Part shown: piece after piece, positions 4,052 through 58,021 of the stretch | How positions within the stretch are numbered: position 1 is the first letter of the stretch | Layout of the letters: the number at the start of each line of letters is the position of its first letter | NCBI GenBank assembly: GCA_017517305.1 | Contig: JAFWZV010000015.1 | Location: 1-64,000, forward strand | Length of the DNA: 64,000 nucleotides | Origin: Lachnospiraceae bacterium | GTDB taxonomy: Bacteria; Bacillota; Clostridia; Lachnospirales; Lachnospiraceae | Reading direction: 5' to 3' | Made by a program: the position numbers and the translations under genes | Notes under the pieces: generated by a model | Databases searched by the model: none | Seen by the model: the letters and a program-made list of their open reading frames with translations, nothing else | What the model was told of the DNA's origin: nothing

Positions 4052-4822
4052 CTAAATGCTATCTACCATTTTCTTAACGTAATCGTAAATGTGCTTTCCT
4101 GCATCAGCACCGTACTTCTCAATAAGCTTTACGATACGAGTCTCTATAATAATACCATCTGCAATATCGCTGTATCTTGCAATCTGCTCCGGTGTATTTG
4201 CGCCAAACTCAATAACAACTGGTGTGTCAGTAAGCTTTCTGATACGACCCACTGTCTCAAGAAGCTTTCCACTTAGCTCTCCCTCTGCCACATTATCCTC
4301 TGAAGGAAGGATGTAAATGTATCCTGTAGCCTCAGGTGCTATCATATTTATTCTATCACCACTGTTTGTTGAAATCAGGGAAATAATGTCGATACCATAC
4401 TTATTTGCTTCCTCTAGAAGCTCACCTTTTTCCTCATATGAAAGGTCCGGGATAATAATACCATCAACACCTGTCTCCTTACATTTTGCACAGAATCTCT
4501 CATATCCATACTTATAAACCGGATTAAGATATGTGAGAAGTACAAGTGGCACATCCACTTTCTTGCTAGCTCTTCCCACCATGTCAAACACCATATCAGT
4601 AGTACATCCACCTGGTGCTGAAAGTGCTCTGACATTTGCCTCCTGCACTACAGGTCCCTCAGCTATAGGATCTGAAAATGGAATTCCAATCTCTACTATG
4701 GCTGCGCCTGCATTTGCAATTTCAACTATAAAATCCTCTGTTTTATCAATGGACGGATCTCCTGCTGTGAGGAATCCGATAAATGATTTCTTACCGATTA
4801 ATGCTTCCTTAACTCTACTCAT
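4052..4822 (-). CDS. trpA: Tryptophan synthase alpha chain
   Basis: Cleaves indole-3-glycerol phosphate to indole and glyceraldehyde 3-phosphate and channels indole to TrpB. The 256-residue TIM barrel carries the catalytic glutamate in [16 protein letters not shown] and the conserved aspartate of FSDP. The phosphate-binding end is degenerate compared with enterobacterial TrpA, but the length is normal. The ATG overlaps the trpB stop by 8 nt (ATGAGTAG), which indicates translational coupling. No other trp biosynthetic gene of the pathway lies nearby. Confidence 0.96.
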
Positions 4823-38631: not shown

Positions 38632-38942
38632 AAAATCCTTGACAGACTTATAACATCTGTCAAGGACGAATAAATTCTAATCTATCCGCGGTGCCACCTT
38701 GATTCGTGTACTCACGCTCTTAGCAAGATACTATCATATCTCTGGCAACTGACGTATGCCCTCACGTCGCAGAATACTCTGTGCCAGCCATCTAATTATG
38801 ACTATATAACACATTTGACTGCGCCCTCAGCGGTCCATTTGCTAACCTGTTTTTCACCCGGCTCTCAGCTACCCAGGCTCTCTGTAGAAGCATAATTAAC
38901 TTTATCTCCGCGTCAACGGTTTAGATATATTTAATTATATGC
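38632..38942 (-). promoter_or_regulatory. Tryptophan T-box leader
   Basis: The conserved T-box AAGGTGGCACCGCG is at 38687-38700 (minus strand). The terminator TCCTTGACAGA/TCTGTCAAGGA followed by TTTTTGTTTTTT is at 38626-38666. Upstream stem I carries CAGAGAGCC, GCTGAGAGCCGGGTG and, in the specifier position, TGG (38835-38837) inside GCAAATGGACCGCTGAGG. Uncharged tRNA-Trp would stabilise the antiterminator and allow trpB expression. Confidence 0.92.
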
Positions 38943-38998: not shown

Positions 38999-40051
38999 CT
39001 ACATCAACCTATTCTTCATCTCCTCATCTATCCTTACAAGTTCAAGCTCTGCTGCGCTTCTGCTGTCACGACCTTCTGCCTGAATTCTTGCAACCTCATC
39101 TAAGCTTTCGATAAGAAGCTTGTTAGTTGCATCAAGAGTTGCCACATCTACGAAACCACGATTTGCAGCCTGCATAGTTTCAACAGAGGCAAGCTTAAGG
39201 GTTTCTGCATTCTTAAGGAGAAGCTTGTTAGTCATGTCATTGATTTCCTTCTCAGCCTTAACTGCCTGTCTAGTGTGCTCCATACCAAGGGCAAGAACCA
39301 CCTGATTCTTCCAAAGCGGAATAGTGTTAAGTAATGTAGACTGAATCTTCTCAGCCATAGTTGCCTGATTAGACTGAATAAGTCTTATCTGTGGTGCTGA
39401 CTGAAGTGATATAGTTCTTGTAAGCTCAAGCTCATATATCTTCTTCTCTAATCTATCCATCTGATTCTTCATATCTGTAACTGCCTGAGCGTCCTGAGCA
39501 AGACCTGTCTCTATAGCCTTTTTCTCCAATGCAGGAAGCTCAATATGCTTGCAGTCATCAAGCTTTCTCTTACCAGCTGCTATCTTAACATTTAAGTCTC
39601 TAAAATATACTGTGTTCATATGGTACATCTGATCAAGCATAGCACAGTCCTTCATAAGCTGAATCTGATGCTGCTGAAGAGTACCTGTAACCTTGTCGAT
39701 ATTCTTCTCGGCTTCTCTGTATTTTTCTCTAACAGACATCTCCTTTGCCTTCTTGAAAAGTGAGAATTTTCCCTTCTCCTCCTCAATATCTCTAAGGTAG
39801 CCAACTGTGGTATCAAGCACCTCACCGATATCATCTATATCCTGTGAATTAAGGTTAGTAAGCATAGTTCCTGAAAGCTCTGAAAGCTTCTTCTGAACAT
39901 CTGAACCATACTCAATTATAGCTGAAGAGTTGGCCAAATCGATTGATTTAACACACTCATCAACTTCCTTAAGTTCCTCCTCTGTAAGATTAATCTCAGG
40001 ATTATTTGCAATTGTTTGGAGCATATCATAGCTCATCAATGTATCACTCAT
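38999..40051 (-). CDS. telA: TelA family protein
   Basis: A 350-residue TelA (toxic anion resistance) protein, mainly helical, with family segments such as LTNLNSQDIDDIGEVLDTTV, the PEINLTEEELKEVDE N-terminus and LLNTIPLWKNQVVLALGMEHTRQAV. TelA is linked in the literature to tellurite and other stress (Ter) systems, often beside AAA+ and VWA proteins. Here it is the last gene of the second block of the 39-55.7 kb cluster. Its start overlaps the previous stop by 1 nt (TAATG). Confidence 0.9.
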   Translation of the reverse strand: MSDTLMSYDMLQTIANNPEINLTEEELKEVDECVKSIDLANSSAIIEYGSDVQKKLSELSGTMLTNLNSQDIDDIGEVLDTTVGYLRDIEEEKGKFSLFKKAKEMSVREKYREAEKNIDKVTGTLQQHQIQLMKDCAMLDQMYHMNTVYFRDLNVKIAAGKRKLDDCKHIELPALEKKAIETGLAQDAQAVTDMKNQMDRLEKKIYELELTRTISLQSAPQIRLIQSNQATMAEKIQSTLLNTIPLWKNQVVLALGMEHTRQAVKAEKEINDMTNKLLLKNAETLKLASVETMQAANRGFVDVATLDATNKLLIESLDEVARIQAEGRDSRSAAELELVRIDEEMKNRLM

Positions 40052-40980
40052 TATCTAACCTCTTCCTCCTTAGATTCCTTCACATAATTTGGCACAACAA
40101 TCTCCTTGTTAAGATTTAGCTTTGCCAAAAATCTATCTGCATCCTCATAAACATTCTCACCCATAATTCCCATCTCCGCAGGGGAATTAATTACAATGGC
40201 ATTCTCTGGAATATCCATAATAATTCTAGACTGTTTGTCACTTAACAGCTGCCCATAGCTCATATGCCAGTTTTCCTTAAATGGCATAGACTCCTTAATT
40301 CTACACATAACACGCCTTAAGAATTCCTTACCACATAGAGGATAATAACATTTCTTAACATTAAGCAGTTCGCCAGGTTTATTAATACCTATACTTGCAG
40401 CAAACACTTCATTACCCACCATACAGGTTTCAAACACCTTAAGATTAACTCCATAATCGTTATTCTCCAGAATTTTAATTAGATTAAGGGTAAGTATACC
40501 TCTGTTTCTAATCTGAGCCTCTGTGGTGTCATTGGCATATGCCAGGTTTATGTAAATGGTTATGAATTTTTTCTCCTTAACTCTGTCCATACGGTACATA
40601 GACTTTGGAGCACCTGCCACGTAAGCCGGTACATTGGGCCTTGAGCCCACTACTGATGGGCGAACCTTTCTCGTCTGAACATGACGGATATTTACCCTGT
40701 CTATGTCCTTCTTAAGCTTTACAAACATAGAGAAATCCTTCTCATATCCACCTACACAGTATCCGATAGCAACATCCAACGGTTCCCCTGCAAACTTGCT
40801 GGAGGAATTAATACTTTTCTGAGTATAGAAAATGTTAGTATTTACCGTAGGATTATCAATTAGAAACAAATGCAACTGGCTTAAGGACTTGAAGCTTGCT
40901 CGAAATATATTTATATTTCCTCTGTTTTCAACCTTAAGATTTGGACATTCCTCTGGCTTTAATCCATAGCTTATATCCAT
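40051..40980 (-). CDS. Uncharacterised cluster protein (309 aa)
   Basis: A soluble protein of 309 residues that I do not recognise. It has a phage-like flavour in the segment PSVVGSRPNVPAYVAGAPKSM followed by alternating strands and helices (FITIYINLAYANDTTEAQIRNRGILTLNLIKILE). No catalytic motif is evident. It sits 1 bp after the coiled-coil AAA+ gene and overlaps telA, so it is certainly part of this operon; it may be a structural or adaptor component. Confidence 0.6.
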   Translation of the reverse strand: MDISYGLKPEECPNLKVENRGNINIFRASFKSLSQLHLFLIDNPTVNTNIFYTQKSINSSSKFAGEPLDVAIGYCVGGYEKDFSMFVKLKKDIDRVNIRHVQTRKVRPSVVGSRPNVPAYVAGAPKSMYRMDRVKEKKFITIYINLAYANDTTEAQIRNRGILTLNLIKILENNDYGVNLKVFETCMVGNEVFAASIGINKPGELLNVKKCYYPLCGKEFLRRVMCRIKESMPFKENWHMSYGQLLSDKQSRIIMDIPENAIVINSPAEMGIMGENVYEDADRFLAKLNLNKEIVVPNYVKESKEEEVR

Positions 40981-40981
40981 A

Positions 40982-43273
40982 CTATCTTACTCCGCCTTTC
41001 TGTCTAAGGTCGTTAACCTTTGCAGCAAACATCTTGTAAATCTCACCTGCTCCAGGATAAGAAGCAACACTACCTCCCATATGCTGTACAAGGAATGCAA
41101 GGTACTCCATATCCTTAGTCTGAATAAATTCGTAATCCAAAATCTTACCCATATCCAAACTCTTATTATCAAGGTATCTTCTAATTCTGGCAGTATCTCT
41201 AGTTGTAAGAATACCAGGTGCTGCGCAGTCATTCTGATTACTCCATGCATCTGTAGCAAGTCTAAATATAACACAGAACTGATACCAATCCTTGTACTCT
41301 CCAAGAATCTTCTCCTCCACGTAGTTATCATAGCCTACGTACACAGGAGTAAATCTCTGCTGTACTGACTCCTCGATTTTCTCTCTGGTGTTGTAGTTTG
41401 CATCAGCTCCATTTCCCGCTGTGTTACCTGCAGCTATAATACGGAAGTTCTGATGTCTCTTAACATTTTCACCATGAGGGAAGCTGTAGCTTGCGTCCTT
41501 ACCATTAGACAGGAAGGAATTAAGCTTAACTGTAGCTCTTGAGTTACCGTTATCAAGCTCATCACAGAATGCAATCTTACCGTACTTGTAGCAACGGTAA
41601 AAGTTAGGTGTACTATATGCACCTGTTGCTGTCTGGAAGCCTAAGATATCGTACTCCTCGTTGATATATCCTATATCTATGAAATCAAGGTTAAGAATAG
41701 AAGCTATCTGCTTAACCATAAATGTCTTACCACAGCCTGAAGGTCCAATCATATACGGATTTGCATCCTCCATAAGCACTGTAACAACATCATCAAACAT
41801 CTTGTGGAAATGCTCTCCCTTAGCAATTCTTCTCTGCTTCTCCTCCATAACCATCTTGTATCTTGTCTCAAATGGAATGCTAGTATCAAGAAGTGGATTA
41901 ACCTCTGGTATAGCCTGTGGGTCTACCTCCATCGGTGGAAGTCCAGCTGACGAAAACTGTGGAGTGCCCATCATCTGCACTGTCTGCATAGGATCTGCAA
42001 CTACTGTAGCACCCTTATTAGGAGTAGTTGCTGCCTGAGCCTCACCATTTGCACCATCTAAATTCATAGCTGCCGCCTGGGCTTCGATACCCTTAGTTAT
42101 AGCATCGATGTTCTGATTATTAAGAAGCTCTAGCTTTGCAAGTCTATCATAAAGCTCCTTATTCTCATCTGCCTTAGAAAGAATCTTCTCGATATCCTTA
42201 TCATTTGCCACCATATTGTTAATCTTATCCATGGCACTTGAGGCCTCAGTGTTAATACGAAGAAGCTCTGAATTAGCAGCAGTTGTAATAGCTCTAGCCA
42301 TAGTTCTAAGCTCATTAAGCTTACTTTCTGCCTCACTAAATATCTGTCCAAGAAGTACATCCTTCTGGATAATAACCTCCTGCTTTTGCTCCTCTAAGAA
42401 GCTATTATACGCAGCATTCATATCCTCTTTAGCAGTAGCTGCCTTCATAGATATAAGATTTGTTTCTCTCTTACTAATCTCAGTTATTGCATCTGTAGTA
42501 TCCTTCATAACTCGGCTAAGCTGCATAGTCTTAGCATCAGCCTGCTCTAGGATTCCAACAGTCTCGGAAAGCATAGCATTGGCCTTTGCAAGCTGCTGCT
42601 CAGTCTTAGCCACATCAGCCTCATCTATATCATAGATACCTGCCATGTGCTCTACACGCTTTGTCTCGCTAGCTATAACTGCCTTTACATCACCTGAACG
42701 AAGAATCTTCTGTGCCACATCCTTCATATTTGCAGTATAGGTCTCATCATCAATGAAGAATGCTCTAACAGACAAGCCGTACTGAATTATGTCATGGAGA
42801 CACTCGTTACACTTTGCATCTCTCTTAATGCTATCCATAAACTCAATATAGTTGTCCTTATCCTTAAATGTAGCGTAAAGAGTAACATTGAATAATCCCT
42901 TACCTATAAGTCCATCCTGCTTAAATAAGCTTACAAACACCATGGCGTTTAGCTCAAAATTAGGTGTGTTCTCACCATAAGGAAATATTCTAGCATAGAT
43001 TTCTTCTGCTCTTCTCAAAACTGCAAGATATGAAGTTGCAGCAATATCCGCCTTATTGGCCACGATAGTTTCAATAAGCTCTGCGCAAAGCTCTATAGGC
43101 TGAATCTTGGTAGATACAGGATCCTTACAAATCTCCTTACAATATGTAACAAATGCTCTGTCTATAGACTGAGTCAAATTATAGGTATAGTCATCATTAA
43201 TGCTATTTATAACCTTTTCTATACGCTTAATATGTAACTTATCATCATTTTCCTTCTTATCAAAAAGCCCCAT
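40982..43273 (-). CDS. Coiled-coil AAA+ ATPase (CobS/MoxR-like)
   Basis: A 763-residue protein. Residues 1-200 form a helical domain, about 215-400 a long coiled coil, and 490-750 an AAA+ module: Walker A GPSGCGKT (510-517), Walker B KIAFCDELDN (566-575), sensor 1 IIAAGNTAG and arginine-containing REKIEESVQQRFTPVYV. The ATPase type is AAA_5/CobS-MoxR, which usually works with a VWA partner. The coiled coil could contact the TelA protein. Its start overlaps the previous stop by 1 nt. This is the second AAA+ of the cluster, distinct from the one at 54.5-55.7 kb. Confidence 0.85.
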   Translation of the reverse strand: MGLFDKKENDDKLHIKRIEKVINSINDDYTYNLTQSIDRAFVTYCKEICKDPVSTKIQPIELCAELIETIVANKADIAATSYLAVLRRAEEIYARIFPYGENTPNFELNAMVFVSLFKQDGLIGKGLFNVTLYATFKDKDNYIEFMDSIKRDAKCNECLHDIIQYGLSVRAFFIDDETYTANMKDVAQKILRSGDVKAVIASETKRVEHMAGIYDIDEADVAKTEQQLAKANAMLSETVGILEQADAKTMQLSRVMKDTTDAITEISKRETNLISMKAATAKEDMNAAYNSFLEEQKQEVIIQKDVLLGQIFSEAESKLNELRTMARAITTAANSELLRINTEASSAMDKINNMVANDKDIEKILSKADENKELYDRLAKLELLNNQNIDAITKGIEAQAAAMNLDGANGEAQAATTPNKGATVVADPMQTVQMMGTPQFSSAGLPPMEVDPQAIPEVNPLLDTSIPFETRYKMVMEEKQRRIAKGEHFHKMFDDVVTVLMEDANPYMIGPSGCGKTFMVKQIASILNLDFIDIGYINEEYDILGFQTATGAYSTPNFYRCYKYGKIAFCDELDNGNSRATVKLNSFLSNGKDASYSFPHGENVKRHQNFRIIAAGNTAGNGADANYNTREKIEESVQQRFTPVYVGYDNYVEEKILGEYKDWYQFCVIFRLATDAWSNQNDCAAPGILTTRDTARIRRYLDNKSLDMGKILDYEFIQTKDMEYLAFLVQHMGGSVASYPGAGEIYKMFAAKVNDLRQKGGVR

Positions 43274-44430
43274 TACTTGCTAACCTCCATACTCTCATAA
43301 AAATATTTATTCTCTAAAAATTCCTTGTAATCCCAACCTGAGTAATATCCTACAGGAATAAATAATGTCTCTAATTCACCATGCTTATCACCGTAGTAAA
43401 GCTTACGCATATTAGCTCCGTCAGTTCTAAGCTTTAAGCCATCTGCAAGATTCTCCACCAATCCATAGGAGAAATGTCTCACCGAAACCTTAGTGTCATG
43501 TGATTCTATGAAAATGGTATCATAGTCAGTACGTTTTGTGGCTTCATCTGCCTCCTTAGTCACTCTGCAAACCACATATCCTCCCCAAGGAAGCTGATAT
43601 ACCTTACTATTTGCCACATCAATGTCTGCATACTTAGGAAGATTTTTAAATGTAGCTCCCTCAGCACCTATTTCCACCATAGGAACTGCATCATCCATAT
43701 AATATACAGTCTGACCATTGACACTGATTGTAGTTACTGACTTAAGACCATCACCACTAATATCAATTCTATTCTCTCCCACCAGTGCAAGCTCTGGGCA
43801 CTCAAATACTATAAGCTGTCTGTTGTCTGCATATGTAACGCTAAACTCTATGGTACTCATATCCTGTAGGAAGTTTCCAACCCTTGCGGTACAGGAATTA
43901 TTCTCCTGAAACTCCATCTTAACTGGAAGCATCAATGTATCTGTACCCTTCTTAAGCTTAAGCACACAATTTCTATGCCAACCTCTGGTGTTCTTATCAA
44001 ATTCCACATTAACATCCCAAAGATTATACAGCTCCTTAATGTAATACTGTAGCATAGGAATCATAGTCTCTCTCATGGCACCGTCCGCAGCAAATCTAGG
44101 TGCTTCAAGGCCTTCCAGCTCCTTATATTTTCTACCTACTCTGTTAAAGAAATTGGTATAGTTTTCTCCTCTGCGGTTAGCAGCTTCTAAAAGTTTCTTA
44201 GCAGCCTCATCTACAATTATTGAATTCTTATCTTCACACTGGGAATAAAGGGTGAGCACCCTTTCCATCAAAAGATCATAATGCTTATCCATGGCACACA
44301 TATTTATCTGCTGATTATCACCATAGTAAGCAGCTATGGCATCACTGCCACCAAGCTTATACAGATGAAGCATCTTAAGGCTATCCATCTGCCTGATTTC
44401 TATTTCCTCTTTATCCATAAATCTATACAT
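43273..44430 (-). CDS. Uncharacterised cluster protein (385 aa)
   Basis: First gene of the second block. A soluble protein: the N-terminal half is helical (EEIEIRQMDSLKMLHLYKL, then LLEAANRRGENYTNFFNRVGRKY), and the C-terminal half is beta-rich with many short strands (VTYADNRQLIVFECPELAL, VYQLPWGGYVVCRVTKEAD). I recognise no family. The ATG at 44430 has GGGGGAA 6 nt upstream. Its own promoter lies about 63 bp before the start, after the end of the DUF4132 gene. Confidence 0.6.
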   Translation of the reverse strand: MYRFMDKEEIEIRQMDSLKMLHLYKLGGSDAIAAYYGDNQQINMCAMDKHYDLLMERVLTLYSQCEDKNSIIVDEAAKKLLEAANRRGENYTNFFNRVGRKYKELEGLEAPRFAADGAMRETMIPMLQYYIKELYNLWDVNVEFDKNTRGWHRNCVLKLKKGTDTLMLPVKMEFQENNSCTARVGNFLQDMSTIEFSVTYADNRQLIVFECPELALVGENRIDISGDGLKSVTTISVNGQTVYYMDDAVPMVEIGAEGATFKNLPKYADIDVANSKVYQLPWGGYVVCRVTKEADEATKRTDYDTIFIESHDTKVSVRHFSYGLVENLADGLKLRTDGANMRKLYYGDKHGELETLFIPVGYYSGWDYKEFLENKYFYESMEVSK

Positions 44431-44492
44431 ATCTTTCCCCCGACACATATGTTGTAGCAGGCACTTGCAACACAAAGTAACCCACTATAATG

Positions 44493-44521
44493 ATAATACC
44501 AAGAATTAGGTAAAGTAACAA
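44493..44521 (-). promoter_or_regulatory. Promoter of the second cluster block
   Basis: Minus-strand -35 TTGTTA (44516-44521) and -10 TATTAT (44493-44498), 17 bp apart, in the 184-bp gap after the DUF4132 gene. It allows the four genes 44430-38999 to be expressed apart from the MoxR-VWA block. Confidence 0.65.
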
Positions 44522-44567
44522 TATGAAATTTACGTTGTTAGAGGGGATTTTAGTGCAAAATACAAAT

Positions 44568-44600
44568 GATATGAATTCCATATAATACGGAATCCATATC
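44568..44600 (-). terminator. Weak terminator after the DUF4132 gene
   Basis: Hairpin GATATGGATTCC/GGAATTCATATC (one mismatch), followed on the minus strand by ATTTGTATTTT. The T-tract is interrupted, so partial read-through into the second block is possible. Confidence 0.5.
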
Positions 44601-44614
44601 ATCTGTTAAATTAC

Positions 44615-47600
44615 CTACTTTTCACTTTGCCAATTCTCATTAGTCTCTGTACTTGTGGCTGTTGCCTTCTCTAGCTGATACACTATCTCCGAGTAGTATC
44701 TAGCTGGCACATCACCTAAATCTAAGGCACTTTCCTTGGCAACATCACCCCAGCCTTTTCTGTCATATTGTACAGTTTCTGTGTTATAAATCACTGCATC
44801 GTAAACTGTTACATCATCCTCGTTGATGCTTGCGTAATCACCTATAAATGCTCCGGAGAAATATAGCTCCACACCCAGCCCACAATCAGCATCGTCACGG
44901 ATGTATTTGTAGAATCCTCCACCATCCATAGCAGGTCCCTTTGTCCATCCCATACCAATAAGCTTACTGGATAGAGAAAGTGGATTTAACATCTTGCCTG
45001 CCACCTTAGTTAAGGATTTCTCCTTCTTCTCAGCATCAGTTATTCTGTAGACTGGTCTTGATAGCTGCTCTATGGACTGAGTAATCTCATAATCGATAAG
45101 CTGTTCCTGCCACTTAGACTTTATTTCCTCATCTAGCTCTACCGGATGAACCAAACCAATTACAGCTGACTCAGAAAGCTCATATTCATCCTCATCCACT
45201 GTGTTAAAGGTTCCATCCTCCATATATCTAAAGGTATCCTTTAAATCTTCCTTCTCATACACGCCCCAGATTAAGCTTATGGCAAACTGATGCATAATAG
45301 GATTTTTCACAAATAGCTTCTCCCAATCAACTGCCTTCCACCTTCTATTAACAGTAAGAGCATATTCAAGTCTAAGCTTCTGATTAGTAACAGTTGTCTT
45401 CATCTGCTTCTTCATCTGCTTAAATTCAGCATAAGCCTCTGCTGCCTTAGCTTCATCGTCCTTTTTACCTGGTGCTGGCATATTCTTAAGCTTCTTGTCA
45501 TTCTCATCGAATATCTCAACCTCAAGAGCCGGTGTAATGTAAACCTTAAACTGTCTCTCTCCATAGTCGAAGATTCTCTCTAGGTTCTCATTAAAGCCTA
45601 GGTCCGGAACAATTCTATCCGCCAGCTCTTCACGGGTAAGTCCAAGCTCCTCTGCTGCAAATGCTAGTGCATCCCCAGCAGCAGCCTTAACCTGCTTATA
45701 CTTGTACTTTCTAGCTATTCCGTCCACAACAAGAAGTGCTGTTGGAGAATCATTTAAAGCCATAGACTTAACTGCCTCTGCAGCTATGGCTCCTCTTGAG
45801 TTACCTGCCCAATCATTAATTTGTCTCTGAAGCTTAACCACCATATCAGCTCCACCATAGATTGCAGTTACATAGAGAACCCATTTTTTCTTGGCCTCAG
45901 CACCTGCCTCTATCCAGCGGTCATAAAGCTCGTTCATGTAAAGGGCAAGCTCCGACTTGTTAAGCTTGTTAGTCAAGGTCTCAATTCTCTTATTGTACTT
46001 TGGTGCAGTCATATCGTTATAACCAAGTAGAATTGCCTGCATATAAGCTTCATCAGCTACAGTCTCAGCGTTATCTCCTGTAAAATGTACATCTGGATAT
46101 GGTGCCTCGTAAGCCCAGGCAAGAGAGCGCTTTCTGTTACCCTTGTGAAGTTCCTTAACAAGAGAATCTGCTGTAAGTGGTGAACCATTTGTCCCTTCTT
46201 CACCAGCTTCTCCCTCCATAGCAGCTGCTCCTAAGAGCCCTCTTATAACATCTGCTGTCTTCTTGGATTTCTCCACTTCAAGGGCAGCCTTTAATTCCTG
46301 GGTGTAATCACCCTTTGACTTGGCAAGAATTGTAGCAGCCAACTCTCTGTCTGCTGCCTTCTTACTCTTAAGCTTTTCCAACACCTCAGGCAGCCATTCC
46401 TCATTGGCGGAAATGGCATTAGCCAATTCCTCCTTAACAAGCTTAGAGCCATCAGCGAAATATGCAAATAGCGCATCCTTATACTGTCCCTTATTGACAC
46501 CAATTACATACACACCCAGGTATCTACCATCCGCATTTGCCTCAGCAAAGGCCTTAAGCATCTCCTCCTCACGAAGATGCAGGTAAGTGTTGAATATATC
46601 TATGTAAGCATCCATAAGGGAGCTTTTAAACGAATCCAAATAAGCATTATCGTAGATTCCCATAGCAACAGCCACCTGAGTATTAAGATGCACACCCATA
46701 GCATCTAACCCTTTAAATATATCCTTTACCTCGTCCTTGTTGTAACTACCATTATTTCTGGTAAGATTGTTCGAGAAAATGTAATAACTACCATCCTCTG
46801 CTACAAGCTTTACGGCTAGATATGCCTTACATCTCTTATAGAAATCATCACTGCCATAAGCATTGTGATAATTTTTCAGAGAGTTTACATAGTTACTGCT
46901 ATTATAATAGGAGCTGACACCTTTAAGCTGGTCTGAAAGACTATAAATAAGGTTTATATCTCCTCCGTTAATTAAGTAGCTCTTAACAGCTTCCACATCC
47001 TCTTTTTTAAGTCTTCCCTCTATGATCTTAGCAATTTCACCAGCAATCATTCTTCGCTTGTCATCGCCGGAATCCGATACAACTGACTTAAACTTATTCT
47101 CATAAATTTGTGAGTCTATATCATTCAATGCTTCTATCATCTTAGAGTAGCTATTCAAATCCACCTTCTTAAGCGCAGCGATATACTCATCACTATTTTC
47201 CTGTGCTAACTTAGGAAGGGCACTTTTAAGACCTATCTTTGCACACCAACAGATTAGCTCAGTAGTATCAAGCATAAAATCCTTACGCCACTCATCTATT
47301 TGCTTAGTTATCTCTTCACCTACTCTATTACCTCTTACAAGGTCCATGGTGCGATTAAAATTGTTGCCACAAGCACACACCTTAATCAAATTAGTAAGCT
47401 TGTAGGACATCTTATAATTAGCTACTGCGCAACCTAGGAAAAGAGCATCAAAATACTCATTGATCTTGTACCTATTTACAATGTCGCATATTTCCTTAGG
47501 TCTAGGTGTTTTAGTAGTTACATCTTTATTAATATATTCCATTACTTTAGCCACATCAGAGTTAGGAACATTCCCCTCAAATATGCTTCTTATATTTGTT

Positions 47601-48661
47601 ATTATCAAGTGAACATACTCATCGAATAGAGCTTTATCCTCAGAGCTAAGTGTCTTTTTCTTAGCAAATGCAGTGTTTGGAGTTGGCTGTTGCACAGTTT
47701 GCTGCGCCGATTGTTGCACATTCTGTGTTGATTGCTGTACTCCCGCCTGCTGCTGTAGATTAATTTGCTGTTGTACTGCATCTTGCATTTGTTGTATCGC
47801 TTGTGGTTGCTGCCCAATAACCTGCATGGCCTGCTGAATATACGGTGCCTTCTTCTTACCAAATAACTTAACTAGCCCACCTAATATACCACTTACACTA
47901 ATTTGCGCTGGTTGAGATGATAACTGCATCCCAGGATTATTTGGTACATATTGTGATGTATTTTGCCAAACACCAGGATTCACATTTCCACCTACATTTT
48001 GTCCAGCCATCTGACTAGGCTTTGGTGCAGGCTCAAATGCCTTATTCATCTGCGCCACCAAATTCTTAACTGCACTACCCGAGTCCTCGTCCACTATATC
48101 TGTAATCCCTGAAAATGTATTCTTCTGCATCTTAAAATATGCTGCAAGAAGCAATATTCTACCATTACAATACTGCTTATCTGCCAGCTCGTAGGCCATT
48201 TTCACCACCACTGGATTCTTGGCCATATTTATCACTTCGTTGATGCTTTGAGTATTTACTCTGTACACATCTCTAGTTCTCATCTCTGCCATAAGTGCAA
48301 CCAGCTGAGCCGTTGATACATACTTATCTAACTCTAGCTTAGATGAGTATGTTCCAAAGAGATATCTGGGAAACATACACCTCATGCTGACACCATACAC
48401 CTGAAACAGAAGATTAAAAAGTTTCCCAAACTCCTCCATACGCTTACTATTAATCAGTTTCTGAAGATAATTTTCCACCTCTCGCTGTTGAGCAGAATTA
48501 ACCTTCACCTTTGCGTCCAGCTTATTTACTATTCCATAATTGGGGCACTCCCCATCCCCTGCAATATAGTCCTCCGCCTGAGCTAGCTGCTCCGGTGTAA
48601 GACCTGCGCTTCTAAGACAATCTAACATCTTATCAAGCTGCATTTCCTTTGCATTCTTCAT
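44615..48661 (-). CDS. DUF4132 (MolR/YehI-like) protein
   Basis: A 1348-residue cytoplasmic protein, by far the largest in the window. Its C-terminal 230 residues match DUF4132, the domain of E. coli MolR/YehI: RWKAVDWEKLFVKNPIMHQF, LAHP-like IGLVHPVELDEEIKSKWQE and DYEITQSIEQLSRPVYRI. The middle (about 330-1100) is made of helical repeat-like segments, and a Gln-rich linker (about 285-345, with QQQINLQQQAG) joins it to the N-terminal region. It may be a scaffold or sensor for the AAA+/VWA machine. The gap to the previous gene is only 1 bp. Confidence 0.85.
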   Translation of the reverse strand: MKNAKEMQLDKMLDCLRSAGLTPEQLAQAEDYIAGDGECPNYGIVNKLDAKVKVNSAQQREVENYLQKLINSKRMEEFGKLFNLLFQVYGVSMRCMFPRYLFGTYSSKLELDKYVSTAQLVALMAEMRTRDVYRVNTQSINEVINMAKNPVVVKMAYELADKQYCNGRILLLAAYFKMQKNTFSGITDIVDEDSGSAVKNLVAQMNKAFEPAPKPSQMAGQNVGGNVNPGVWQNTSQYVPNNPGMQLSSQPAQISVSGILGGLVKLFGKKKAPYIQQAMQVIGQQPQAIQQMQDAVQQQINLQQQAGVQQSTQNVQQSAQQTVQQPTPNTAFAKKKTLSSEDKALFDEYVHLIITNIRSIFEGNVPNSDVAKVMEYINKDVTTKTPRPKEICDIVNRYKINEYFDALFLGCAVANYKMSYKLTNLIKVCACGNNFNRTMDLVRGNRVGEEITKQIDEWRKDFMLDTTELICWCAKIGLKSALPKLAQENSDEYIAALKKVDLNSYSKMIEALNDIDSQIYENKFKSVVSDSGDDKRRMIAGEIAKIIEGRLKKEDVEAVKSYLINGGDINLIYSLSDQLKGVSSYYNSSNYVNSLKNYHNAYGSDDFYKRCKAYLAVKLVAEDGSYYIFSNNLTRNNGSYNKDEVKDIFKGLDAMGVHLNTQVAVAMGIYDNAYLDSFKSSLMDAYIDIFNTYLHLREEEMLKAFAEANADGRYLGVYVIGVNKGQYKDALFAYFADGSKLVKEELANAISANEEWLPEVLEKLKSKKAADRELAATILAKSKGDYTQELKAALEVEKSKKTADVIRGLLGAAAMEGEAGEEGTNGSPLTADSLVKELHKGNRKRSLAWAYEAPYPDVHFTGDNAETVADEAYMQAILLGYNDMTAPKYNKRIETLTNKLNKSELALYMNELYDRWIEAGAEAKKKWVLYVTAIYGGADMVVKLQRQINDWAGNSRGAIAAEAVKSMALNDSPTALLVVDGIARKYKYKQVKAAAGDALAFAAEELGLTREELADRIVPDLGFNENLERIFDYGERQFKVYITPALEVEIFDENDKKLKNMPAPGKKDDEAKAAEAYAEFKQMKKQMKTTVTNQKLRLEYALTVNRRWKAVDWEKLFVKNPIMHQFAISLIWGVYEKEDLKDTFRYMEDGTFNTVDEDEYELSESAVIGLVHPVELDEEIKSKWQEQLIDYEITQSIEQLSRPVYRITDAEKKEKSLTKVAGKMLNPLSLSSKLIGMGWTKGPAMDGGGFYKYIRDDADCGLGVELYFSGAFIGDYASINEDDVTVYDAVIYNTETVQYDRKGWGDVAKESALDLGDVPARYYSEIVYQLEKATATSTETNENWQSEK

Positions 48662-48662
48662 A

Positions 48663-49010
48663 CTACATTTCCTCCTGCTTACTTTCCTTTAAACCTTCTC
48701 TAACCTTGTCGTACCTACACTTTTTTATTCCTAGCGAAAGATACTTATTGATATGACAATATATTTTCATAAGCTCCTGCTTCTTCTCATCAGCAAAATC
48801 CAGACTATGCCTTAATTCATCCATATTATTTTTCAGTAAGGTAAGCTTATCTGCTAAATCAGACAAACCCAACTGTCTGCTCTTATCTGCCCTATCTATA
48901 ATATCTAGCGAAATTGTGTCATGAGCTACAGAAAAGCCTGATAGAAACAAAGCTTCCATTGTTTTTTCGCAATCCTTTAAGTGTTTTTCCAAAATAGTCT
49001 CTGCGCCCAT
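48663..49010 (-). CDS. Small helical cluster protein (115 aa)
   Basis: A short all-helical, charged protein (ILEKHLKDCEKTMEALFLSG, then KLTLLKNNMDELRHSLDFADEKKQE) with coiled-coil character. It starts immediately after the SWIM gene and ends 1 bp before the DUF4132 gene, so it is an integral operon member. Its small size suggests an adaptor. I see no similarity to a named family. Confidence 0.65.
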   Translation of the reverse strand: MGAETILEKHLKDCEKTMEALFLSGFSVAHDTISLDIIDRADKSRQLGLSDLADKLTLLKNNMDELRHSLDFADEKKQELMKIYCHINKYLSLGIKKCRYDKVREGLKESKQEEM

Positions 49011-50918
49011 TTACAACACCTCCTCTTCCCTGTCATAGTATTCTATAGGGTAAAGTCTTAGCTCGCCGTCTTCTATGTAAAGCCTACCGAAAAAGTCAGG
49101 CACACCGCGTCTGCCTTCCTTTATCCTTCTATGAAGTCGTTCAAGGTGATTGATAATATACTTGTCCTCCTTGCTGTAGGTCATTTTAATAAATAAGCTC
49201 TGACCATCCCCGTCCACAAGACGCATGTAAAATGCCTGTCTTATGTTATCAAAATCCGCCTCCAAAACAGCCGCAGGTCTAACTACTGCAAGGTGATTTT
49301 TCTCTCTGTTTTCATCCTCATTTTCAAACCAATGGTCTCCGAAAAGCTCTGAGAAAAGCTGACCAAAATCACTGTAAATGTGTGATTCAAGCATCTCGTG
49401 ATTTAAGTCTCTATTTCCAATAAGCTCTGCCACAGCCTCACTAGTGGAGGACAATCGATTCTCCACACTAACCTTTCCGTTTGTAAGCTTTATCCTGTGC
49501 TCTGACAGAGTATCTAAGCTACAATTTAACCCCCATGGTGCAGGAGAATTGGCATTTAGCCCTCTGGCTCCTCTGTTATCATAGATAGTCGGTCTGGCAT
49601 TGGTAAATGTGTACCACTCACCACTGTCCTCCTCTATAAAATATACTGTTTCACCCTCAAAGCCTGCCTGGCTTACAAAATGTCTCATACCCATGCCCAT
49701 TAAGCTAAGAGGCTTTGACAGCTCGTACTCTGAGCGAAGCTTCCCGGCTATTTGCTGTAGGCGGTCTACATTAACCGCTTGTTCCTTATTGGTTTTTACA
49801 GTTTTATCTATGTCATGTTTTACCCTATTGTCTGGCACTGGGTCAGACATCTCCTTAGACATATTTTCAACTATATTCTCTAGCTTTATTGTATTACCAT
49901 ACATTTCACACACAAAGTGCATAAGTGCTACCACATCTGAGGATGCATGTCTTTTAAAATATTTATTCAGTCTCTCGGAAAGCCTTCTAAAATCACTTTC
50001 GAAATTAGCCAATCTGCCATTGTGGCACATAATGGCCATTCGTTCACAGCTATCTGACATATCAGGGGATATACGAGCAAGTCCAGTGAAGATAACCTCC
50101 CCTAAAAGCTGCTTCATACTTACAATCAGTTCTTTAATCTCATCTATATCAAGCCCTGGATTATCTGTACCCTCATAATATGAATCCAGCTTATCCTTAG
50201 TCAATATACCTTTATGTAGCTGGTAGGATATTATTGCTTCTGCCTTGTGTGAACAAAGCTCTTTCATATGACAGGAGCAAGTTGAATAAGCCAAGGGCTC
50301 GAGGAGCTTAACAATGGTATCTGTATCTCCAAATGAAACTGTCACCACCGATGTTACGGTTATGTTCGGTGCTTCTGCCACCCTCATACGCTGGCACACC
50401 TTGCGAAATGTGCTTGCTCCCAGCTGTTTTTTTATCTGTTCTAGGGTGTAGGATTCAAGCTCAGAGAAGCTTCGTTCCTGACTTGATTTTATACCAATCA
50501 CCTGTTGAGCTTCCTGTCCTGGCTTCGTCCCATCGCCCACCGATGAGCTTACACGTTCTGTAGCTTCCGTTAGGTCTACTAGCAGCTCATCTGCACCTTC
50601 GATTCCAGGTTGCGATCCATAAGGCTCATCAACATCTCCAATCTCACCAGACTCATATTTTCTCTTTACAGCTATAGCTCCCATAACTATATGCTTACAC
50701 ATACTTCTAGATGGACAGCTACATTTGCTATCACCAAGAGGCATATAAAGCTTACAGCTTACATCCTCCATAGAAACATTTATGCACTTATCAGTCTCAT
50801 CTATGTCTACAGCCACACTTTCCAAATCCTTGTAAGAGCGCTTAACAATTCCCTTATTTGACAAACCAACTAGGTAGTCATCATCTATAGTTTGGAAGTA
50901 CTTTATCATCTCACTCAT
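49011..50918 (-). CDS. Double SWIM zinc-finger protein
   Basis: A 635-residue protein with two identically spaced SWIM zinc-binding motifs (C-x-C-x5-C-x-H): CSCPSRSMCKH at 66-76 and CSCHMKELCSH at 214-224. SWIM domains bind nucleic acid or protein. The remainder is helical (LRSEYELSKPLSLMGMGMRH) with a beta-rich C-terminus. It corresponds in position and domain to YehQ of the E. coli yeh cluster. The ATGA overlap couples it to the VWA gene. It likely links the machine to a target molecule, which is inference. Confidence 0.85.
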   Translation of the reverse strand: MSEMIKYFQTIDDDYLVGLSNKGIVKRSYKDLESVAVDIDETDKCINVSMEDVSCKLYMPLGDSKCSCPSRSMCKHIVMGAIAVKRKYESGEIGDVDEPYGSQPGIEGADELLVDLTEATERVSSSVGDGTKPGQEAQQVIGIKSSQERSFSELESYTLEQIKKQLGASTFRKVCQRMRVAEAPNITVTSVVTVSFGDTDTIVKLLEPLAYSTCSCHMKELCSHKAEAIISYQLHKGILTKDKLDSYYEGTDNPGLDIDEIKELIVSMKQLLGEVIFTGLARISPDMSDSCERMAIMCHNGRLANFESDFRRLSERLNKYFKRHASSDVVALMHFVCEMYGNTIKLENIVENMSKEMSDPVPDNRVKHDIDKTVKTNKEQAVNVDRLQQIAGKLRSEYELSKPLSLMGMGMRHFVSQAGFEGETVYFIEEDSGEWYTFTNARPTIYDNRGARGLNANSPAPWGLNCSLDTLSEHRIKLTNGKVSVENRLSSTSEAVAELIGNRDLNHEMLESHIYSDFGQLFSELFGDHWFENEDENREKNHLAVVRPAAVLEADFDNIRQAFYMRLVDGDGQSLFIKMTYSKEDKYIINHLERLHRRIKEGRRGVPDFFGRLYIEDGELRLYPIEYYDREEEVL

Positions 50919-52045
50919 GATATTACACCTCCTACCCAGTCTGCTAACTGCTCCGGAGTCATAGCAGCAACATGAGCTCCAAGGTCCACCAGGCGAGCTG
51001 CCACAGTTCGATTGTAATTTGGATTGGCATTTACATCCAAAGCTGTAAGAACAATCATCTTAGCTCCAGACTCTATAATATTTCTGCTGGTGGCGTACAG
51101 CTCGTTAAGGCTACCACCCTCATACAAATCTGTAATAAGCACAAATATAGTCTTGTCCGGGTTATCTATAAGACCCTCGCAATACCTAACCGCCTGACCG
51201 ATATTGGTTCCACCGCCCAGCTGAACACTTATAAGAGTCTCCACCGGATTATCTAAATGGTCACTTAAATCAACTACATTTGTGTCAAATATAACTAGTC
51301 TTGTATCAAGCATTGGAAGCTTGGCAAATATACCTGCTGTAACAGCACTATGAATTACAGAATCAAGCATAGAACCACTTTCGTCCACAGCTATTACTAT
51401 ACGCCAGTTGTTGTATTTTCTAACGCGAGAGTTAAAGTAAACTCTATCTAAAATCAGCTTCTCCCTATCCTTGTCATAGTTCTTAAGGTTCTTGGCAATG
51501 GTCTTCTTAATATCCAGATTCCTGGATGACTTTATAACACTTTCACTATTACGATTAAGCTTGCCTGTAATACCAATCTTAATCCTTTGCTCCAGCTTCT
51601 CCATAAGTTCCTTAACCACAGCCTTTACAATTCGCTCTGCCTCCTCTAGGACACTTCTGTTCATAGAACCCTTAAGCTGAAGTATCATCTTAAGAAGCTC
51701 CTGATTAGGCTCCATCTTAGCCAATACCTCTCTATCAGTGAGAAGCTCTGTCATGCCATATCTATCAAGTGCCTGCTTCTCTAATATCTCCACAGTTTCC
51801 TTAGGGAACAGCTTACGCACCTTGTTAATCCAGTGAGAAACCGTAGGATTAGAGTCCTCCAAACTCCCCTTTTCTTCTCTGACACCACTGTCCTCACCGT
51901 ACTCTCTTGAGTAGAGATAATCCAGCACATCCTCCATCTCCATATATCTGGCTGAGCCCTGTCCAAAGGATATCTGATCACTAGAATACTTACCTAGCAT
52001 GAGACGCCATTTATTTAATTGTTCTATATCTCTCTCATTATTCAT
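50915..52045 (-). CDS. VWA domain protein (YehP-like)
   Basis: A 376-residue protein. Residues 1-205 are helical, and a von Willebrand A domain covers about 210-375 with a complete metal-binding MIDAS: DESGS (221-225), the threonine in LGGGTNIG and the aspartate in LITDLYEGG. VWA proteins recruit substrates for MoxR-type AAA+ ATPases. Its size and position correspond to YehP. The ATG abuts the stop of the DUF5682 gene, and its stop overlaps the SWIM gene by 4 nt. Confidence 0.92.
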   Translation of the reverse strand: MNNERDIEQLNKWRLMLGKYSSDQISFGQGSARYMEMEDVLDYLYSREYGEDSGVREEKGSLEDSNPTVSHWINKVRKLFPKETVEILEKQALDRYGMTELLTDREVLAKMEPNQELLKMILQLKGSMNRSVLEEAERIVKAVVKELMEKLEQRIKIGITGKLNRNSESVIKSSRNLDIKKTIAKNLKNYDKDREKLILDRVYFNSRVRKYNNWRIVIAVDESGSMLDSVIHSAVTAGIFAKLPMLDTRLVIFDTNVVDLSDHLDNPVETLISVQLGGGTNIGQAVRYCEGLIDNPDKTIFVLITDLYEGGSLNELYATSRNIIESGAKMIVLTALDVNANPNYNRTVAARLVDLGAHVAAMTPEQLADWVGGVIS

Positions 52046-54583
52046 TTAAAACTCCATAATCTGAAGAATCTGCTCCTCCAAGTTCTTTCCATAAGCAAAC
52101 ACCTCAGGTGTAATCTGTTGCAGCTTCTTAAACTTGGATTTCTCCATGCCGTGCATAGCCGCCACCCTGCCACCCAGCTTATCAATCTCCGCAGGTGTAA
52201 AATAGCTAAAGGCTATTCTAAACTGGGGCAGAAGCTGCATAAAGTCTGCATCCTCCACACCAAGTAAAAACTCATCTATAATTCTAAGGAAGGTGTCACC
52301 TACAAAGACTAAGTCTCTAGCTGTGAAGAATACTCCTCTTAAAAATGTTGCTGCTTTAAGCTTCTTCTCTTTGGTTCCTGACATATATCCGGCACATGCA
52401 TTTCCCACCTCACTGGCAGTGAATCTTCCTCTTCCATAAAGCACTCCTCGAATGGCCCCATCAAGCCCCGGGTTAATGTCCTTCTTAGCAAGAAGTCCCT
52501 CCAATATATCTATAAAGCTTTCTAAATCCTTCTCATATTCCTTACGACTTAATATGGAATTAAGGGTTTTCACCGCCTCCATAGTATCAGCTAAGTTCTC
52601 CTCCTTTACCTGATGCATATGTGGAAGGGTGTACATTACCTTTCGGTATACTGCCATAATAAGAGGCTTTATATCTATATCGCTCTGGTACAGAGTGCTT
52701 AACTCATCCAGCATAATTACATTTGAAAAAGCATTTACCAATGAGAAAAAATCCTCATCCTGACCAAGAAGCTGTTCTAATCTTAACATAGCTCCAGATA
52801 GTTGTTCAGAAAGTCCCATCTCAAACATCTGAATCAAAATATCTGATGCGGCACTAGAATTCATATCCTCCTTAAGCTTGCTCCCTACAAGGGATACACA
52901 CGCCTCCTCTAAGGTTCCACCGTACACCGACTTATCGATAAGGGCTGCAATAACCTGAGTGCTCCACTTATATGTCCATATCTCACGAATAAGATTCCTG
53001 TCCTTTTTAAGCCTTAGATTTGGACCTTTCTGCCTTATGGCAAAGCCAGTATCTAAGAATGTCATCTGATACAAAAACTCACTTATTTCCCTGTGTCTCT
53101 TGGTAGAAAATATGGACAATGTCACTTCATTCTTTACACTAGTACCAATCTTAAGCTTATATTTACGGCTAAGCTCCTCAAAACTTTGTACTAGAGGTGG
53201 AATTTTGGCGTTCTTACACAGCTTACCAATCTTATTTCCAGTAAGCTGCCTTCTTAAAATGTCCATAGGCAGACTTGTGGCAAAGTTGTACTCACCCTTT
53301 ACAAAGGATGACAGCACACTGTCATACAGCTCGTATGCACCAGGGTACTCCTTACCTCTAAGCATAGCCAGATTATCTGCCATATTGTATGCACAAATCT
53401 CGTCGTAAGTGGAAAGGTAGCCCTCCTTTTTACGAACTGCCTTGCCAACATTTACTATGTATTTTAAAACTGTGTCCTTGTATATCTGGCACATACCAGG
53501 GTCCACGGTTTCATCTTCATTACTGTCTCCATTATCAACAGATACTATCGCCTTGTCATTACCATCTTTTATCCCATCTGTAACATTTTTCTCAAGCTCC
53601 TGCCACACATTCTGATAAAAGCTTGGATGTGGCATACCGCTGGCGTAACCATTTAGTCCATCTGCTGCCTCCATAGAATATGACATAAGGTACACACCCT
53701 GGTCATCCTGTGGAATATTATGCAACTTCAACGAGACTGATGAGTTAGAGCTAATCCCATTAGATGATTTTATATTCTGTTCATCACAGCCTACCACATC
53801 ACCCCACATGCTATCCATCAACCCATAGGTATGAAATCCACCTGTAACAACAAGAATCCTGCTATATTTTCCCTTAGCAGCTTCAATATTCTTACGCATA
53901 TATGCTTCTCTGGCAAAACAGCCCTCCTCTTGAAGCCTTCTCTCATCAGAATTCATCCTGGAAAGCACACAGTAATGAAGCATATTCCCCACGAATTCAT
54001 CAGTGGAAATTGTAAGACCCTTTAGCTCAAAATATTTCTCCCAAAATTCATCGAAATTCCTGACCCCTGTACGCTCCACTAATGATTTGAAAAAGCGATT
54101 AGAAGCCAAGTAATAATCGTCATTATAGTTATTCTTGTCCTCCTTCTTACGAAGACCCTTGTTCTCCTCTGAGGCTATAAGAATTTCAGCGTAAGGCAGG
54201 TCAAAAAAGGCAGTATCTGCCCCCTGCTTCACTCCATATCTTGCCGCCACCAGCTCTGGGGAATAGTCAAGAAATGGATAGTAGCACTTGTACGCCTCCT
54301 TCTCCTTAGACACATAGCCCTTACTATCCTTATAGGAATAGTAAATTGCAAATGGCGCCTCAGTATCAGCATCAGTCATAACATCAAGCATCTCATTAGC
54401 CCCCTCAGGGCCCTCTATAAGAATGCACTCTGGCTTGTATTCCTCCATACATTTAAACAAATGATAGGAGCATGCCGGACTGTGGTGACGAATTGGAAAA
54501 TATACTACCTGTTTAGAATATGAAAATGCTTCCTGAAAGATAGGCTCTATAGCCACTTCCTGGCCTCGTAATAATTCTTCCAT
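52046..54583 (-). CDS. DUF5682 protein (YehM-like)
   Basis: An 845-residue protein of the DUF5682 family, recognisable by QVVYFPIRHHSPACSYHLFKCMEEYKPECILIEGPEGANEM near the N-terminus (read in parts: FPIRHHSPA, ILIEGP) and VTGGFHTYGL later. The histidine-rich N-terminal part resembles erythromycin-esterase/ChaN-like folds, but no function is established. Such genes occur with MoxR-VWA-SWIM genes in many bacteria. It overlaps the MoxR-like gene by 37 nt and touches the VWA gene, which is typical for subunits made in fixed ratio. Confidence 0.88.
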   Translation of the reverse strand: MEELLRGQEVAIEPIFQEAFSYSKQVVYFPIRHHSPACSYHLFKCMEEYKPECILIEGPEGANEMLDVMTDADTEAPFAIYYSYKDSKGYVSKEKEAYKCYYPFLDYSPELVAARYGVKQGADTAFFDLPYAEILIASEENKGLRKKEDKNNYNDDYYLASNRFFKSLVERTGVRNFDEFWEKYFELKGLTISTDEFVGNMLHYCVLSRMNSDERRLQEEGCFAREAYMRKNIEAAKGKYSRILVVTGGFHTYGLMDSMWGDVVGCDEQNIKSSNGISSNSSVSLKLHNIPQDDQGVYLMSYSMEAADGLNGYASGMPHPSFYQNVWQELEKNVTDGIKDGNDKAIVSVDNGDSNEDETVDPGMCQIYKDTVLKYIVNVGKAVRKKEGYLSTYDEICAYNMADNLAMLRGKEYPGAYELYDSVLSSFVKGEYNFATSLPMDILRRQLTGNKIGKLCKNAKIPPLVQSFEELSRKYKLKIGTSVKNEVTLSIFSTKRHREISEFLYQMTFLDTGFAIRQKGPNLRLKKDRNLIREIWTYKWSTQVIAALIDKSVYGGTLEEACVSLVGSKLKEDMNSSAASDILIQMFEMGLSEQLSGAMLRLEQLLGQDEDFFSLVNAFSNVIMLDELSTLYQSDIDIKPLIMAVYRKVMYTLPHMHQVKEENLADTMEAVKTLNSILSRKEYEKDLESFIDILEGLLAKKDINPGLDGAIRGVLYGRGRFTASEVGNACAGYMSGTKEKKLKAATFLRGVFFTARDLVFVGDTFLRIIDEFLLGVEDADFMQLLPQFRIAFSYFTPAEIDKLGGRVAAMHGMEKSKFKKLQQITPEVFAYGKNLEEQILQIMEF

Positions 54584-55659
54584 AAGCCGCCCTCTCTATC
54601 CTGCTTGTCGCGAACTACTGTATTAAAATATCCCTTAACCTTCTGTAAATCGTCCTTATTCTCCTTGGCGATGGCACCTACCAGATTCTGAACTAAGCTA
54701 TCCATGCTTATGGTTCCATCTCCGTAGTAATATCCGCTCATCATGGACTGATAGTAAACAGACACTGCCTCTGCTGTACTCATAACTGCAGTTGGTCTGT
54801 CAATCTGGTGTCCCATAGAAGACACTCCCTCTCTAAGCTCATGGTATGTAGATGCAAGAATCTCAGCCACATTCTCGTCAGCTGACATCTCAACGTGATT
54901 CTCCTTAGCCAGCTTATTTACCTCGCTTATTATAATCTGTTTCTCCAGTGCCACCTCACGAACAGGAGCAACTGTCTCAAAATTAAATCTTCTCTTAAGA
55001 GCGCTACTCATCTCATTTACACCCTTATCACGTGTGTTGGCAGTACCGATTACATTAAAGCCAGGCTTGGCAAATATTAAGCCTTCGTCACCTAGCTCAG
55101 GTACATTTAACACCTTATCACTAAGCACACTAATTAAACTGTCCTGAATCTCCGCAGGAGTTCTGGTGATTTCCTCAAATCGAGTGATAATTCCCTGCTC
55201 CATACCCACATAAAGAGGAGATGGAACAAGTGCTTCTCTAACCGGTCCCTTATCCAGCAAAAGTGCGTAATTCCAAGAATACTTAATCATATCCTCTGTG
55301 GTGCCTGCTGTACCCTGAATAGTGTTGGTGCTGACACCACTAATTGCCGCAGACAAAAGCTCTGACAGCATGGTTTTGGCAGTTCCCGGCTCACCCACCA
55401 GCATCAGTCCTCTGTTACCAGCAAGTGTAACTATACACCTTTCAACCAAGGCATCATTGCCGAAATATTTCTTATCTATCTTAATCTCCTTGCCCTGATA
55501 AATCACAGGCTGATTGCTTCCAAGTATAAATGTGCGCACTGCCTGGGGTGACATCCTCCAGTTAAGCGGCCTTTTGGCAGTATCCGTAGCTCTAAGTGCC
55601 TCTAATTCTTCTTTATAAGCCACCTCCACAGGGGGCTTTATCATAATATTTTCTCCCAT
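54547..55659 (-). CDS. MoxR-like AAA+ ATPase (YehL-like)
   Basis: A 370-residue AAA+ ATPase, first gene of the cluster. Walker A is GEPGTAKT (89-96), followed by the MoxR-type insert and sensor 1 FNVIGTANTRDKG and R-finger ALKRRFNF. The Walker B region reads GIITRFEEITRT, so the usual D-E pair is E-E, as may also be true of YehL relatives. It would power remodelling of a target bound by the VWA protein. The ATG at 55659 has AAGGAG 7 nt upstream; a GTG at 55725 lies inside the promoter. Confidence 0.9.
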   Translation of the reverse strand: MGENIMIKPPVEVAYKEELEALRATDTAKRPLNWRMSPQAVRTFILGSNQPVIYQGKEIKIDKKYFGNDALVERCIVTLAGNRGLMLVGEPGTAKTMLSELLSAAISGVSTNTIQGTAGTTEDMIKYSWNYALLLDKGPVREALVPSPLYVGMEQGIITRFEEITRTPAEIQDSLISVLSDKVLNVPELGDEGLIFAKPGFNVIGTANTRDKGVNEMSSALKRRFNFETVAPVREVALEKQIIISEVNKLAKENHVEMSADENVAEILASTYHELREGVSSMGHQIDRPTAVMSTAEAVSVYYQSMMSGYYYGDGTISMDSLVQNLVGAIAKENKDDLQKVKGYFNTVVRDKQDREGGLWKNYYEARKWL

Positions 55660-57909: not shown

Positions 57910-58021
57910 TATCTTTCCTCCTAATCTGAGCACTTCAATTATACTACATTTGTGCTCTATATATAAAGACTATTTAGAAATGTATTTTATTGAGCAAAAT
58001 GAAAAAAATTTTTTATTGCCT

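Follow-up and report, generated by a model that had tools for sequence, protein, structure and literature searches.

A Yeh-type operon and a neighboring AAA+/DUF7192/TelA gene cassette in Lachnospiraceae

We have analyzed a stretch of 64,000 nucleotides from a Lachnospiraceae bacterium (contig JAFWZV010000015.1 of assembly GCA_017517305.1, positions 1 to 64,000; hereafter the window) in which ten genes follow one another closely on the minus strand (Table 1). The first six resemble the Yeh genes of Escherichia coli. The last four, referred to here as the cassette, encode a 385-amino-acid (aa) protein, a CobS/MoxR-type AAA+ ATPase, a DUF7192 protein and TelA. A preliminary description, made from the sequence alone, placed these genes in this order and on this strand, with positions that proved exact or within a few bases and domain assignments that are supported by Pfam; it counted nine genes, whereas its own list, like the window, contains ten. 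Its recognition of a Yeh-like set among the first six genes and of TelA as the last one stands, whereas its proposal of two systems merged here into a single assembly is not supported. We find instead that the ten genes almost certainly represent two modules, that is, two independent transcription units (55659-44615 and 44430-38999) lying side by side.

To collect the cassette, the genomes of 84,980 species were scanned once with a DUF7192 profile, which returned 61 loci. Upstream sequence was sufficient at 55 of these and too short at the remaining six. DUF4132, the last gene of the Yeh-type block, adjoins the cassette at just two of the 55, L011 and L012, which together with the window form a supported clade in the DUF7192 tree; L013 falls just outside this clade. 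In L013, the cassette is kept and the flanks match those of the window, with three upstream genes at 89-94% and six downstream genes at 84-99%. At the matching site, L013 holds unrelated open reading frames; the Yeh genes are missing there, as is any counterpart of the sigma-factor gene at 55843-57933 of the window, and DUF5682 was not detected in the L013 genome. DUF5682 occurs anywhere in seven of the 49 cassette genomes tested (of 61), which is near its rate in the family (21 of 200 sampled genomes, the window's own included). Two of the seven belong to the joined clade, and in four of the other five the two blocks sit on different-sized contigs. Yeh blocks also occur without the cassette: among 20 stretches around DUF5682, SWIM and DUF4132 homologues were both present in seven, and cassette genes in one (L112, from the window's clade). 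The block at 44430-38999 is thus mostly found without the first, the very outcome that the preliminary description had named as refuting its proposal, and the idea of one large assembly was abandoned on this comparative evidence.

The 184-bp gap that the preliminary description reported is real (44431-44614) and forms the border between the two modules. The 20-pair hairpin that it contains is kept in L011 and L012, is absent from L013, where the Yeh block is missing, and is probably the end of the Yeh transcript. The cassette leader starts after this hairpin, and comprises approximately 100 bases 5' of the 385-aa gene that are conserved in the window, L011, L012 and L013. We consider the promoter-like site in the leader to be supported because the leader is conserved, not because of the promoter scan. 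The same scan gave 14 terminator-like sites, compared to 9.1 in shuffled sequences (standard deviation 3.3). A leader peptide was considered and dropped; by eye, L011 has a one-base frame change there. The division into two modules is drawn from the 61 cassette loci and the rarity of an adjoining DUF4132, from L013, from the hairpin and conserved leader at the border, and from the Yeh blocks that lack a cassette.

Table 1. Genes and other features of the locus, in reading direction (window coordinates)
Feature	Coordinates	Strand	Evidence
MoxR-type AAA+ ATPase, YehL homologue	54547..55659	-	AAA_5 1.9e-33; 46% to E. coli YehL over 371 aa
DUF5682 protein, YehM homologue	52046..54583	-	PF18934 1.8e-96; 25% to YehM, E 1.8e-40
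VWA protein with DxSGS motif, YehP homologue	50915..52045	-	VWA_CoxE 4.8e-43; 41% to YehP
SWIM zinc-finger protein, YehQ homologue	49011..50918	-	SWIM E 0.0039; 31% over 125 aa to YehQ, E 2e-8
Small helical protein, 115 aa, without family	48663..49010	-	no Pfam match under E 0.9
DUF4132 protein, YehI homologue	44615..48661	-	PF13569 8.3e-51; 33% over 361 aa to C-terminal YehI fragment
20-pair hairpin 3' of DUF4132 stop codon	44563..44605	-	terminator scan; fold z -7.6
Cassette leader, conserved, with promoter-like site TTGTTA-17-TATTAT (44521-44493)	44431..44530	-	alignment of window, L011, L012, L013
Cassette gene 1, protein of 385 aa, without family	43273..44430	-	present in 57/61 loci
Cassette gene 2, CobS/MoxR-type AAA+	40982..43273	-	AAA_5 1.1e-9; phrog_249 4.5e-32
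Cassette gene 3, DUF7192 protein, 309 aa, putative AAA+ partner	40051..40980	-	PF23822 4.7e-19; phrog_1909 5.3e-23
Cassette gene 4, TelA	38999..40051	-	PF05816 1.4e-94; present in 59/61 loci
Terminator-like hairpin with T tail, 3' of TelA	38635..38667	-	terminator scan; fold z -6.5

The order of the cassette is constant, always on one strand, as determined by tblastn and clustering of open reading frames. Clustering around the DUF7192 loci recovered four recurring families in 61, 61, 58 and 56 of the 61, and the next commonest family in 14. The AAA+ gene is present at every locus; a contig edge cuts it in L027 and L042, and L044 retains only a short piece. TelA was identified at 58 loci by clustering and at L031 by tblastn; it was not found in L042, and the contig of L021 ends within DUF7192. 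The 385-aa gene was detected at 56 loci by clustering and at L064 by tblastn. It was not found in L067 despite upstream space (~4096-5380), and L027, L042 and L044 are without the upstream stretch. All 51 members of the DUF7192 alignment match PF23822. The DUF7192 copy L135 (G819:C70:7170-8066) has a single internal TAG in the searched frame.

The 61 loci are titled Lachnospiraceae, Eubacterium, Acetatifactor or Lachnoclostridium, with two titled only Eubacteriales or Clostridiales. Many of the source samples are herbivore guts, and the carriers include cultured rumen isolates, which makes deletion tests feasible; copies are present in isolates AC2031, NE2001, LC2019 and YSD2013. The cassette is rare: two overlapping samples of the family, each with the window's own genome in it, gave 3 carriers among 200 genomes and 4 among 397. 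Neither the cassette nor DUF5682 was found in a genome of the same genus (G180), PF23822 matched only the window's own genome across 398 genomes of the phylum, and a search for the cassette on plasmids gave no match. TelA is widespread in the family, with a match in 81 of 150 genomes (76 over the cut-off), while the cassette itself is rare. Genome G073 carries a second, separate TelA, and the cassette TelA is therefore a dedicated copy there. An additional TelA gene also lies slightly downstream of the cassette TelA in L046 (13142-14188). Our literature searches found no paper naming DUF7192 and no description of the cassette (for TelA, AAA and Lachnospiraceae, among the papers listed and judged by title); the four-gene cassette seems to be undescribed.

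The cassette AAA+ has a Walker A motif (GPSGCGKT), the DE of Walker B and the arginine of QQR, all invariant in 38 aligned rows, and is probably a working enzyme of the CobS/MoxR type. It also has a long N-terminal region that appears helical by eye. Among solved structures it matched only ClpX (0.0029) and a coiled-coil protein (0.0037). The preliminary description listed two unknown proteins next to this ATPase. The 385-aa protein, like the 115-aa protein of the first block, indeed gave no family match; for the 385-aa protein, solved structures also gave no significant match (best E 0.051, Ran-binding domains). The 309-aa protein, in contrast, belongs to PF23822 (DUF7192). Solved structures gave no significant match to DUF7192 (best E 0.22), the middle of which reads by eye as strand-helix-strand in the manner of a Rossmannoid. 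Over 19 residues, mean hydropathy reaches no more than 1.51 in any of the ten proteins; strongly hydrophobic stretches of that length are thus lacking, and all ten are probably soluble.

Phage relatives of the two central cassette proteins were sought by tblastn against 50,697 phage records, accepting E values up to 1 for DUF7192 and up to 1e-3 for the AAA+. DUF7192 matched 241 records (236 Staphylococcus, 2 Lactobacillus, and 1 each Rhizobium, Enterococcus and Sinorhizobium), and the AAA+ matched 412, including 236 Staphylococcus, 82 Mycobacterium, 70 Listeria, 8 Acinetobacter and 6 Gordonia. Eight phage regions were inspected. A5W and A3R are near copies, leaving seven distinct phages, four picked via the AAA+ query and three via the DUF7192 query; the set lies outside the Acinetobacter and Alteromonas records. 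In all seven, the AAA+ gene is followed, without a change of strand, by a gene for 254-381 aa whose product exceeds the PF23822 cut-off, if barely in the Listeria phage (31.6 vs 27 bits). DUF7192 follows the AAA+ gene directly in A5W, phiM5, LMTA-148 and Sephiroth, and with one or two small genes between in RHph_X2_24, 3-521 and DuncansLeg. Among the matches listed, six records appear for both queries, with the matches approximately 1 kb apart on one strand. The occurrence of the AAA+/DUF7192 pair in phages of different hosts is new here, and its persistence makes it likely that the two proteins are a physical pair.

The phage pair, exemplified by ORF029-ORF028 of the Kayvirus A5W, shares both families, their order and their strand with the cassette. 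It differs in that the phage DUF7192 proteins are 15-25% identical to that of the window, that the phage AAA+ is short (372 aa in A5W) whereas the bacterial AAA+ is about 400 residues longer, and that no TelA gene is named nearby in the eight annotated regions inspected. Three scans of viral contigs revealed no cassette; their patterns derived from the bacterial proteins and would overlook phage versions. The phage and bacterial branches of the tree are long, and support for the phage group is poor (39/68). A precedent is found in cobST pairs, which are described as widespread in tailed viruses (PMC8651126). The cassette resembles CobS/CobT, of tailed viruses and of cobaltochelatase, in having a CobS-like AAA+ (phrog_249) that adjoins a partner gene of approximately 280-310 aa. 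It differs from CobS/CobT in that the partner is DUF7192, for which no VWA similarity was found, in the long N-terminal extension of the bacterial AAA+, and in the addition of TelA and the 385-aa protein.

MoxR ATPases usually partner VWA proteins, and the VWA partners in related systems include CobT, NorD and ViaA. NorD is described as plugging the NorQ ring and binding its target (PMC9976466), and TelA has been proposed to build sub-membrane structures (PMC7824862). In the mechanism that we propose, the cassette AAA+ would form a hexameric ring of the CobS/MoxR type, and DUF7192, which holds the place of the VWA partner in the gene order, would be the dedicated adaptor of this ring. The ring and DUF7192 would use ATP to assemble or dismantle TelA, a helical protein, perhaps via the extended N terminus of the ATPase, and the 385-aa protein might confer specificity for a target or signal. 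That TelA is the substrate of the AAA+/DUF7192 pair is offered tentatively. About as tentative is the wider suggestion that DUF7192 represents a class of partner for AAA+ proteins, one that either differs from the VWA co-chaperone or is a worn-down version of it. This class would be common to tailed phages, with Gram-positive and alphaproteobacterial hosts, and to a bacterial four-gene system in which the pair acts on a TelA structure; phage and host would then share an ATPase machine and may be in conflict with each other.

Taken as a whole, the locus is likely best explained as a Yeh-type operon next to a cassette of four genes in its own right, with an ATPase ring, a DUF7192 adaptor and TelA. 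This explanation builds on the observed composition and order of the cassette, its occurrence without the Yeh unit, its leader, its ATPase motifs and the phage pair. Several points weigh against it. In G638, the contig with the Yeh block (L107, G638:C17:45201-55765) has the same length (72,010 bases) and number as the cassette contig of L065, which would place the two blocks approximately 20 kb apart; this seems to be the sole loose link outside the window's clade and counts against full independence. The assemblies are mostly metagenome-assembled genomes, in which an absence may reflect missing sequence. The promoter scan gave 49 promoter-like sites, hardly above the 47.7 of shuffled sequences. 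Pairwise identities of the four cassette proteins across 38 loci are correlated (Pearson 0.67 to 0.96) and fit a joint history, but lack a housekeeping control and are not used as proof. TelA, the proposed substrate, is the second most variable member of the cassette after the 385-aa protein, with a mean pairwise identity of 0.39 and a minimum of 0.14. Finally, DUF7192 was searched for VWA similarity, and neither Pfam nor hhalign (probabilities 0.1 to 2.3) detected any.

Other readings of the locus were weighed against this one. A single functional assembly of all ten genes, with two ATPases, could be argued from their common strand and short gaps, from the joined blocks in the window, L011 and L012, and from G638, but the 53 of 55 testable loci without an adjoining DUF4132, the near-background frequency of DUF5682 in cassette genomes, the hairpin and separate leader at the border, and the cassette and flanks of L013 without a Yeh block make it extremely improbable. 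The resemblance of the AAA+ to phrog_249 'porphyrin biosynthesis', an annotation that many phage copies also bear, would suit a function in metal or cofactor insertion like that of the cobaltochelatase CobST. This label depends on the ATPase alone, however, and no CobN, no VWA/MIDAS domain in the cassette's partner and no corrin gene was matched among the ten genes, so that such a function is very unlikely. The link to Ter-type stress systems suggested in the preliminary description comes down to TelA: this is the one likeness, and no TerB, TerC or TerD match was obtained in the ten genes and four flanking genes.

Anti-phage defence, in which TelA would be the effector and the phage-like AAA+/DUF7192 pair would, for instance, act as a decoy or interfere with that of the phage, draws on the rare and patchy distribution of the cassette, on the core pair being common to phages, and on a proposal that Ter/TelA systems block phage entry (PMC7824862). 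Against it, the ten proteins gave no convincing match in PADLOC-DB 2.0.0 (two matches, E 0.011 and 0.035), and there was no plasmid match. The flanking genes, of which 75 of the 97 collected were scanned with PADLOC and Pfam, are of metabolic and housekeeping families; their few PADLOC matches at 1e-10 are to broad families (mad2 4, mad3 2, dGTPase 1, LmuB 1 and 1, AriA 1; no control set), and a defence island is unsupported by them. Given these ordinary flanks and the lack of a convincing PADLOC match, we regard defence as possible but do not favor it, and judge it unlikely. A domesticated phage pair that has since come to serve housekeeping or envelope stress, independently of phages, is a better candidate, if still a rather unlikely one. 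It would account for the roughly 400 extra residues of the bacterial AAA+ relative to the 372 aa of A5W, for the added TelA and 385-aa protein, and for flanks of ordinary metabolic genes, but the tree, with its long phage branches and join support of 39/68, does not settle the direction of transfer, and the rarity of the cassette argues against a basic role.

With the Yeh-type operon, which is of a known kind, separated from the cassette, a supposed giant machine splits in two, and for the cassette the literature searched holds no description. TelA, which is common yet poorly understood, gains a fixed ATPase partner through the cassette. In relatives of phage K, the AAA+ genes, for which porphyrin biosynthesis is a frequent annotation, gain a partner and a testable chaperone role.

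The first block was compared to the yeh region of E. coli K-12. By homology, 55659-44615 is a Yeh-type operon of known kind, with homologues of YehL, M, P, Q and I and a small helical gene. The MoxR, DUF5682, VWA and SWIM genes are contiguous and in the order yehL-M-P-Q, and the DUF4132 gene (yehI) is also part of the cluster. The window differs from E. coli in that DUF4132 lies 3' of the SWIM gene rather than before yehL, in having the additional 115-aa gene and no yehK, and in the weak similarity of its SWIM protein to YehQ. The SWIM match is below the curated cut-off, and two CxC..CxH motifs were found by eye. Weak homologues of the 115-aa protein lie at the equivalent place in L122 and L123. 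The MoxR family has been described as including a YehL subfamily (PMC3893208), and our literature search on DUF4132, DUF5682 and the yeh genes turned up no functional study among the papers listed. Just upstream of the Yeh block, positions 55843-57933 of the window encode an extracytoplasmic function (ECF)-type sigma factor whose C terminus is greatly extended. The Yeh VWA protein also has a homologue (35% over 96%) at MT835988.1:9392-10489; this record, 14 kb long, is titled 'Bacteriophage sp.', comes from human faeces and may be a misfiled bacterial contig.

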